Positions 46,407-49,256 of a stretch of DNA of 64,000 bases are shown one piece after another. Made by a program: the position numbers and the translations under genes. The first letter of the stretch is position 1, and each line of letters starts with the position of its first letter. Origin of the DNA: Methanobacteriota archaeon (GTDB lineage Archaea > Thermoplasmatota > Poseidoniia > Poseidoniales > Thalassarchaeaceae); contig PBMR01000005.1 in the NCBI GenBank assembly GCA_002722735.1, positions 1-64,000 on the forward strand, given 5' to 3'. The notes under the pieces are model-generated. The model was not told where the DNA came from. It saw only the letters and a list, made by a program, of their open reading frames with translations, and did not search any database.

Positions 46407-46480
46407 ATTGCCTCACAATGGTCGCAGAACATGAGGGTGTTGGCTTCTTGAGTGAGGCATTGGTCCGCGACCTGACCAAG

Positions 46481-47713
46481 ATGTCCCGGAATGCCCCCAT
46501 AACCAAGTCTGAGGACCACCTCAGCGTGCCCGACCATCCCATCATTCACTACATCGAGGGTGATGGTATCGGCATCGACATCACACCAGTGATGATGGCT
46601 GTGGTCGACGCCGCGGTCGAGCGGGCGTACGACGCTGAGCGAGCCATCACCTGGATCGAGGTACTCGCCGGAGAGAAGGCATTCGATGCGACAGGCGAAT
46701 GGCTTCCCGATGAAACCAAGCTAGCGATGCGGGAGGGCTTGGTTTCAATCAAGGGACCGCTAACTACCCCAGTCGGAGGTGGTATACGCAGTCTCAACGT
46801 CGCACTTCGCCAGCAACTGGATCTCTATGCTTGCCTCCGCCCCCTGCGCTGGTTCAAGGGAACCCCCAGCCCCGTCAAGGACCCAGGAGCTGTCAACATG
46901 ACCATCTTCCGCGAGAATAGCGAGGACGTCTATGCGGGCATTGAGTGGGAGGCAGGAAGTGATGAGGTGCAAAAGGTAGTTGAGTTCCTCCAAGAGGAAA
47001 TGGGCGTGGTTGAAATCCGCTTTCCCGACACAGTCGGCATCGGAATCAAACCAATCAGTGAGGAGGGAACGGCTCGAATCGTTCGCGCCGCCATCCAGTA
47101 CGCAATTGATCGCGACAAGGATAGCGTGACGCTGGTCCACAAGGGCAATATCATGAAGTTCACTGAAGGTGGATTTCGCGATTGGGGATACCAATTAGCC
47201 AAAGATGAATTCGGTGCTACCGAGGTGGATGGCGGGCCATGGTGCACGTTGACAAACCCGAGGACGGGCAAGGAGGTCCTGATCAAGGATGTCATCGCCG
47301 ACGCGATGCTCCAGCAACTCCTAACCCGTCCGCGCGAGTACAGTGTGCTGGCCACGACGAACCTCAACGGTGACTACATCTCGGATGCTCTGGCCGCCCA
47401 GGTCGGTGGCATTGGCTTAGCGCCCGGTGCCAACATCAACTACGACACCGGGATCGCCATCTTCGAAGCCACACACGGCACCGCTCCCAAGTATGCCGGA
47501 CAGGACAAGGTCAACCCAGGCTCTTTGATTCTGTCAGCTGTGATGATGCTCCGCTACATGGGCTGGGGAGAGGCTGCCAGACTCATAGTGTCGGGAATGG
47601 AGGGTGCGATTAGTGCTGGCACGGTGACTTATGACCTAGAGCGCCTGATGGATGGTGCTACACTGCTCAAGTGCAGTGAGTTCGGCAAGGCCGTGATAGC
47701 CCATATGGGCTAA
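46481..47713 (+). CDS. icd: Isocitrate dehydrogenase (NADP-type)
   Basis: 410 aa from ATG 46481. Conserved elements: '[16 protein letters not shown]', '[26 protein letters not shown]' with the substrate-binding Ser and Arg residues, '[14 protein letters not shown]', '[13 protein letters not shown]', '[19 protein letters not shown]' and the NADP-specificity region '[13 protein letters not shown]'. It oxidises isocitrate to 2-oxoglutarate in the TCA cycle. An in-frame ATG at 46418 would leave only 11 bp to the divergent OsmC start; the shorter start fits archaeal family N-termini better. Confidence 0.94.
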
Positions 47714-47720
47714 AGTCTGG

Positions 47721-47972
47721 CTATCCGATTCGGATGACCCTGTCACTCGGGCGCACTCTCTCCGGGACTTTGATTCCCACATCATCCCCTGCACCCGCAT
47801 GTCCAACGGATTCCAGCTCAATCTGTATGGACTCCACCACGATCTCGAAGTCAGTAGTCGCTCCGACAATCTTGATTCTATCGCCTACGGAGAGGTCTCC
47901 ATCGAGCTCTAAGGCGGCGACACCGACCTTCCGGAAATAACGATCGACACGGCCGATTTCTTGCTCTGACGT
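47721..47972 (-). CDS. Small EF-Tu domain 2-like beta-barrel protein without a standard start codon
   Basis: 83 codons, easily missed. The translation runs 'EIGRVDRYFRKVGVAALEL', 'GDLSVGDRIKIVGATTDF', 'VVESIQIELESVGHAGAGD', 'DVGIKVPERVRPSDRVIRIG'. This is the pattern of small archaeal/bacterial proteins built from the second (beta-barrel) domain of translation GTPases. No ATG, GTG or TTG exists in frame between the upstream stop and the domain. The best signal is GAGGTGAG (47976-47983, minus strand), a Shine-Dalgarno ending 3 nt before ACG 47972; CTG 47993 is the other near-cognate option. Either translation starts at ACG, or an ATG was lost by mutation or sequencing error. It ends 7 nt from the convergent icd stop. 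Confidence 0.75.
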   Translation of the reverse strand, partial: TSEQEIGRVDRYFRKVGVAALELDGDLSVGDRIKIVGATTDFEIVVESIQIELESVGHAGAGDDVGIKVPERVRPSDRVIRIG

Positions 47973-48007
47973 CTTCTCACCTCGATAGTCCAGAGTGGCA
48001 GGAGACC

Positions 48008-48029
48008 ATCAAATTACTCTTGATTTGAT
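48008..48029. promoter_or_regulatory. Inverted repeat in divergent EF-Tu-D2/thiolase spacer
   Basis: ATCAAAT (48008-48014) and ATTTGAT (48023-48029) are perfect 7-bp arms with an 8-nt spacer, in an AT-rich stretch. It lies 35-57 nt before the predicted start of the minus-strand small gene and about 65 nt upstream of the thiolase TATA box. A regulator site for either gene is possible. Confidence 0.35.
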
Positions 48030-48092
48030 TAGATGTGCAATTTCACACTCAATGTGTGTGTTGTTACGTGTTGTATCCCGAGATACTCGATG

Positions 48093-48102
48093 TTTTAATT
48101 AA
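48093..48102 (+). promoter_or_regulatory. TATA box of fatty-acid oxidation cluster
   Basis: TTTTAATTAA is centred 26 nt before GTG 48123, pointing to a leaderless transcript that begins at the thiolase start codon and heads the eight-gene cluster. Confidence 0.6.
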
Positions 48103-48122
48103 GTCACAATTTTCGGACTGTT

Positions 48123-49256
48123 GTGGTAGCACTAATTGTGGGATTCGCACGCTCCCCATTCACGAGAGCGGGGAAAGGGACCCTTTCAAAAACACGCCCA
48201 GACGATGTCGCTGCGACAGTAGTAAACACCCTCCTGAAAAACCTCAATCTAGATCCTTCCCTAGTCGAGGATCTCATAGTTGGAACGGCATTCCCCGAGG
48301 GCGAGCAGGGGTTCAATCTAGCTAGGATGATAACTTTCCTCACAGACCTCCCCGAGACAGTCCCAGGAGTGACAATAAATCGCTTCTGCGGCTCGTCCAT
48401 GCAGGCGATTCATGACGCCGCTGGGCGCGTCGCCATGGGAGCTGGAGACGCATTCATCGCTGGTGGCGTCGAATCGATGACCCGAATCCCGATGACTGGA
48501 TTCAACCCGATGCCTAACCCTAGGCTCAGCGAGGATTATCCTGAGGCCTTCACCTCAATGGGAATCACAGCGGAGAACCTCGCTAGTAAGCACGGCATCG
48601 ACCGAGAGACTCAGGAGGCATTCGCAATCGAGAGCCATGCACGAGCATCGAAGGCCCGGGAATCTGGGGCATTCGTGGATGAGATCGTTCCGATTGAGAC
48701 TGTGGACGGCATAGTCGACACCGACGGTTGCATCCGTCCCGATACCAACGCCCAAGCCCTGTCCGGGCTGCGACCCGCCTTCGACGCCGATGGCACAGTG
48801 ACAGCAGGGACTTCGTCCCCACTAACGGATGGTGCCGCCTTCGTTCTAGTTTGCTCTGAGGCATTTGCCGCAGCCCAAGGACTGACACCACTCGCACGCA
48901 TCGTCAGTACAGCGGTTTCAGGCTGCGCACCTGAGATCATGGGCATCGGACCCGTCGAGGCGACGAAAAAGGCCCTTGATCGGGCAGGCCTCTCTCTCGA
49001 TGACATCGATGTCGTCGAGTTAAACGAGGCATTCGCCGCCCAATCACTCGCAGTCATAGGTGATCTCGATCTCGACCCCTCGAAGGTCAATATCGAGGGC
49101 GGGGCCATCGCCATCGGCCACCCCCTCGGTGCCAGCGGCGCACGCATCACCGGGAAGGCAGCCCAGTTATTGCATCGCAATGGCGCCGAGCGGGCTCTCG
49201 CGACCATGTGCGTGGGAGGAGGTCAGGGCATTGCGACCATCCTCGAGAAGATATAG
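48123..49256 (+). CDS. Acetyl-CoA C-acyltransferase (thiolase)
   Basis: 377 aa. The three catalytic blocks are intact: nucleophile Cys89 in 'NRFCGSSMQ', 'NEAFAAQ' with the GHPLGASGAR His region, and the second Cys in 'CVGGGQG'. It cleaves 3-ketoacyl-CoA to acetyl-CoA and a shortened acyl-CoA, the last step of beta-oxidation, or runs in reverse to condense. It starts at leaderless GTG 48123. The dehydrogenase/hydratase gene begins immediately after its stop. First gene of the cluster. Confidence 0.95.
   Translation: MVALIVGFARSPFTRAGKGTLSKTRPDDVAATVVNTLLKNLNLDPSLVEDLIVGTAFPEGEQGFNLARMITFLTDLPETVPGVTINRFCGSSMQAIHDAAGRVAMGAGDAFIAGGVESMTRIPMTGFNPMPNPRLSEDYPEAFTSMGITAENLASKHGIDRETQEAFAIESHARASKARESGAFVDEIVPIETVDGIVDTDGCIRPDTNAQALSGLRPAFDADGTVTAGTSSPLTDGAAFVLVCSEAFAAAQGLTPLARIVSTAVSGCAPEIMGIGPVEATKKALDRAGLSLDDIDVVELNEAFAAQSLAVIGDLDLDPSKVNIEGGAIAIGHPLGASGARITGKAAQLLHRNGAERALATMCVGGGQGIATILEKI

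Follow-up and report, generated by a model that had tools for sequence, protein, structure and literature searches.

A gene of 83 codons on the minus strand of the window, which is the whole 64,000-nucleotide stretch of DNA that was analysed, carries ACG at the position where its orthologues start with GTG or TTG. The window comes from an uncultured marine archaeon in the family of Candidatus Thalassarchaeum. As the frame, the Shine-Dalgarno sequence and the signal of selection are all intact, weak initiation at ACG was ranked first among the readings of this codon and is tentatively favoured here. The gap is small between this reading and its two main rivals, a recent loss of the start codon and a strain mixture or error in the consensus.

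The gene and its protein

The gene runs from 47972 to 47721 on the minus strand, with the ACG at 47972-47970 and a TAG stop codon ending at 47721, and its 83-residue translation from the ACG is TSEQEIGRVDRYFRKVGVAALELDGDLSVGDRIKIVGATTDFEIVVESIQIELESVGHAGAGDDVGIKVPERVRPSDRVIRIG. It is part of a minus-strand open frame that begins at 48008, directly after an in-frame TGA, and continues to 47721. A gap of 7 bp separates the TAG from the end of icd (NADP isocitrate dehydrogenase, 46418-47713), a convergent neighbour on the plus strand, and the divergent neighbour on the other side encodes an acetyl-CoA acyltransferase (thiolase; 48123-49256, plus strand). An earlier note on this DNA had described an intact EF-Tu-domain-2-like gene beside icd, and this description was borne out by the orthologues, the unbroken frame, the fold and the 7 bp distance to icd. 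The orthologues, with E about 1e-38 and 72-80% identity, indicate that the ACG open reading frame is a real gene.

The same note had stated that no standard start codon occurs in frame. This holds for the start of the domain, as no canonical start was found at the conserved N-terminus; over its full length, however, the frame contains GTG at codons 45, 46, 65 and 73. The first of these, at 47840, is halfway through the domain, and because no ATG, GTG or TTG is found before codon 45, the gene was omitted from the list of open reading frames of at least 50 residues.

Homologues of the protein were found in both archaea and bacteria, with 48-80% identity. The Pfam profile of EF-Tu domain 2 (GTP_EFTU_D2, PF03144) was matched by 11 out of 11 alignment members (best E 2e-8), and that of the U32 peptidase C-terminal domain (Peptidase_U32_C, PF16325) by 7 out of 11. 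The AlphaFold model showed a complete beta-barrel (pLDDT 94.1), for which the best match among solved structures was the U32 C-terminal domain 4he6 (TM 0.88), with EF-Tu and IF2 ranking after it (TM about 0.7-0.8). The earlier assignment to EF-Tu domain 2 is therefore backed by both the profiles and the fold. As the protein alone reaches only E 8e-4 against PF03144, a weak match under the curated cut-off, "beta-barrel of the EF-Tu-domain-2/U32-C kind" is a safer name than "translation factor".

With an open frame of at most 95 codons, this is a stand-alone protein without a GTPase domain. It resembles other stand-alone EF-Tu-domain-2-like proteins of archaea and bacteria (PF03144, PF16325; PDB 4he5/4he6, 1xe1) in being a single 83-residue beta-barrel and in sharing their conserved GIKVPERVR segment, but differs from them by its ACG start codon. 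Compared with its orthologues in g17 and g11, which are two sister genera in the same family, it lacks a C-terminal membrane helix, and the same tail-less, 83-residue architecture is seen in genera g8 and g16 as well as in homologues from other phyla. The distant homologues examined share no conserved neighbour that could give a clue to function, and the literature on Pbp11 and MTH1895 contained nothing relevant to this gene.

The ancestral start column

Nine leaders were compared, which were those of the window, of g17 (L004, L005, L007, L014, L018) and of g11 (L016, L020, L021), most of the orthologues occupying the same locus. The frames of the nine sequences align without gaps from the start codon onwards. 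In the column of the ACG (47970-47972, minus strand), GTG is found in g17 and in L020 and L021 of g11, TTG in L016 of g11, and ATG or GTG in more distant family members. Comparing this codon among orthologues had been suggested in the earlier note, and GTG or TTG was found exactly at the ACG column and in the same frame, with none of the eight compared orthologues starting elsewhere.

The ACG is preceded by GAGGTGAG, and the Shine-Dalgarno sequence GAGGTGA (47977-47983, minus strand) is identical in all nine leaders. It lies 4 nt before the start codon, or 5 nt in L020 and L021. The claim that a Shine-Dalgarno sequence is correctly placed for an ACG at the expected start was thus upheld, as the orthologues start there and share the motif. 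On its own, a good Shine-Dalgarno sequence before an ACG is no rarity: a match of at least 7 at similar spacing was found for 12 of the window's 1760 ACG triplets (0.7%), so the argument stands on position and conservation. Strong Shine-Dalgarno sequences were uncommon in the window, with a match of 7 at the first start in one of approximately 33 likely genes. No 16S from which the genome's own anti-Shine-Dalgarno sequence could be read was found in the bin.

The sequence comparison confirms the ACG as the ancestral start column; the orthologues fix the position of the start rather than the use of ACG. A one-base change from ATG to ACG, offered earlier as an option, was right in taking this column as the start, but the orthologues carry GTG or TTG there, not ATG. 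A change from GTG to ACG takes two changes, or one real change and one error, and the two-change route probably passed from GTG through ATG to ACG.

Locus, gene loss and selection

The thiolase gene is also the neighbour of the orthologues in g17 and in L016 of g11, where the orthologue is separated from icd by a convergent DEAD-box helicase gene (directly seen in L004 and L014). A C-terminal transmembrane helix was judged from the sequence to be present in the orthologues of L004, L005, L014 and L016, and the tail is also found in L020 and L021. In the source genome, which is 80% complete, no DEAD-box orthologue was found, just paralogues at 36-40% identity. The simplest reading is that the window lineage lost both the tail and the DEAD-box gene in one deletion of about 1.4 kb, with the putative junction at 47714-47726.

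Two further observations were made on the relatives. In L020 and L021 (G078 and G074 of g11), the stretch covered contains the orthologue and its tail but neither the thiolase nor the DEAD-box neighbour, so that either the gene moved or the neighbourhood differs. In the g17 genome G158 (at about 2683 in L007 and about 1683 in L025), the orthologue is frameshifted at codon 62-63 and is either broken or mis-assembled.

The strongest rival to weak initiation at ACG is that the base is real and the gene was inactivated only very recently, as a step towards the loss that already took place elsewhere in the genus. The search of 27 further genomes of the genus (three of them at least 90% complete) yielded no orthologue, and in four of these, icd and the thiolase gene are directly adjacent, with a gap of 103-133 nt and nothing between them. 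In the window, the membrane helix and the DEAD-box gene are lost, whereas g17 and L016 retain both, and as the window is the deepest branch of its own genus in the RNR tree (support 99; g17, then g11 outside), it looks like an intermediate stage. The icd and thiolase trees were poorly resolved. If this is a start-loss allele, the gene would be at a stage after its truncation and before its disappearance from the genus.

Selection on the gene was estimated with a codon model written for this analysis, using the nine sequences and two topologies. On the window branch, omega was 0.02-0.03, compared with 0.07 for the remaining branches. An omega of 1 was rejected for this branch (P 0.00025-0.0004 across the two topologies), as was an omega of 0.15 (P 0.02-0.03), and the 95% upper bound was about 0.13. 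The codon model showed no sign of relaxation of the window branch against the background. Between the window and the g17 orthologues, differences were found at 40-47 third positions and at 17-21 first or second positions. Neither frame breaks nor relaxed selection, which would be expected of a pseudogene, were found, and this pattern of substitution indicates that the gene was translated and useful over most of the window branch.

Because of the purifying selection on the window branch, any inactivation must be recent. The upper bound of omega confines neutral drift to less than about a tenth of the branch, the frame contains no stop or frameshift, and the Shine-Dalgarno sequence is perfect, all of which argue against a loss of the start. 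However, on this long branch with its nearly saturated synonymous sites, a very recent loss would be invisible, and we regard start loss as possible but less likely than initiation at ACG.

A further explanation, which we consider unlikely, is a consensus error or a strain mixture in a metagenome assembly, with ATG (or GTG or TTG) as the true codon. The source genome is a draft in 20 contigs and most likely a metagenome bin, its 80% completeness and the single-base distance between ACG and ATG are in keeping with such an error, and no second sequence of the species was found in genomes or viral contigs. On the other hand, long genes nearby, such as icd and the 1217-codon RNR gene, are unbroken, and the starts of the genes for AlaXM and topoisomerase VI A are normal. 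Moreover, as a change from GTG to ACG takes two changes, an error alone is no explanation.

The protein encoded by icd in the window (46418-47713) was found on a long branch (0.25) beside G147 of g17 and not with its own genus, unlike RNR. This could be due either to faster evolution or to recombination at the locus.

Possible weak initiation at ACG

Under weak initiation, the ancestral GTG start of a conserved small gene would have become ACG, and the strong GAGGTGA Shine-Dalgarno sequence would place the ribosome on it. Ribosomes ending a 10-codon upstream frame 4 nt earlier could possibly help. The Met-initiator tRNA would read ACG weakly, resulting in low expression, and the product would be a soluble barrel without the ancestral membrane tail. 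The start column, the Shine-Dalgarno sequence conserved in all nine leaders, the lack of any standard start before codon 45, the low omega, the complete modelled barrel and the tail-less architecture shared with other homologues speak for the use of ACG. Against it are the published results on non-canonical starts given below, as well as the truncation of this copy and the absence of the gene from the 27 other genomes searched, both of which would fit a gene that is being lost. A more specific proposal, that ACG is a fixed functional start, enabled by the strong Shine-Dalgarno sequence together with termination-reinitiation from the 10-codon upstream frame, and kept for very low expression after the loss of the membrane anchor, seems to us rather improbable.

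If ACG is used, this would be an unusual case of natural ACG initiation in an archaeal chromosomal gene. As gene finders limited to ATG, GTG and TTG skip such genes, others could be missed.

Genes with starts other than AUG, GUG or UUG are known in prokaryotes, such as infC and pcnB of E. coli, which have AUU starts. A GUC start in Halobacterium is cited in PMC4574771. Like these, the window gene has an odd codon at a necessary start, in its case behind a strong ribosome-binding site, but their starts rest on experiments, whereas translation of the window gene is inferred. Chloroplast ACG start codons (ndhD, psbL and others) are restored to AUG by RNA editing, and they likewise carry ACG where an ATG start belongs; to our knowledge, no such ACG-to-AUG start editing is known in archaea. 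The editing of chloroplast starts is also noted in PMC9845219.

In E. coli, ACG fell in the class with 0.1-1.5% of ATG activity in one series (PMC6925171). In Haloferax, GUG was 5-37 times weaker than AUG and UUG was inactive, on very short leaders (PMC4574771), and archaeal aIF1 was reported to discriminate against non-canonical starts (PMC8211752). Literature retrieved with "ACG start codon" was mainly eukaryotic, viral or organellar, and as most subscription papers were outside the coverage, absence is unproven.

The leader and upstream starts

Upstream of the gene, a short frame of 10 codons (ATG...TGA, 47977-48009, minus strand) ends inside the Shine-Dalgarno sequence, 4 nt before the ACG, and may have a function in its translation. 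TTGATG is kept in all nine leaders, and the 10-codon length in eight of them, with L016 being the exception. GTA, TTGATG and further positions are conserved amid an otherwise variable sequence. Reinitiation over short gaps has been measured elsewhere and needed no more of the upstream gene than its last 15 nt (PMC10666635). In the present case, reinitiation helped by the upstream frame is a possibility and not a finding, because the upstream peptide showed no evident coding conservation in the nine leaders, its length is broken in L016, and the conservation of the leader may instead mark a transcript start.

An in-frame CTG (47991-47993, minus strand) had been proposed as an alternative start; initiation there, or at another near-cognate codon upstream, would add about seven residues. 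There is no stop between this CTG and the ACG; however, it lies upstream of the Shine-Dalgarno sequence, has none of its own, and is not conserved, being CTC in most orthologues, whose starts are the GTG or TTG in the ACG column. Its use is disfavoured and appears very unlikely. Least probable of all is a programmed +1 frameshift, as in the RF2 gene, in which ribosomes from the ATG at 48009 would read 10 codons to AGG UGA and shift into the frame of the gene to give an extended protein: the distance from ATG to start is 38 nt in L016, L020 and L021 instead of 37, so that the same shift would fail, L016 has no UGA at the site in the upstream frame, and the orthologues have their own starts and no evident coding pattern in the upstream peptide. 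Both the CTG start and the frameshift were set aside on this comparison of the orthologous leaders.

A gene-specific leader element was observed about 37 nt before the start, with the sequence CCGTANSTTGATGRYC in the relatives and GAGTAATTTGATGGTC in the window (48004-48019, minus strand). The idea that it is common to other genes was rejected, as its sole exact match elsewhere in the genome is antisense inside a coding frame and the counts of genome matches resemble those of a reversed-pattern control. No known RNA family was found within 47000-49000. A conserved hairpin hiding the Shine-Dalgarno sequence was also rejected, as single-sequence folds disagree among the orthologues (the L021 leader being incomplete in this comparison). 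The whole window leader folds with -11.8 kcal/mol, and a possible hairpin at 47982-48010 (minus strand), seen in the window only and unconserved in the relatives, lies just upstream of the Shine-Dalgarno sequence and leaves it open.
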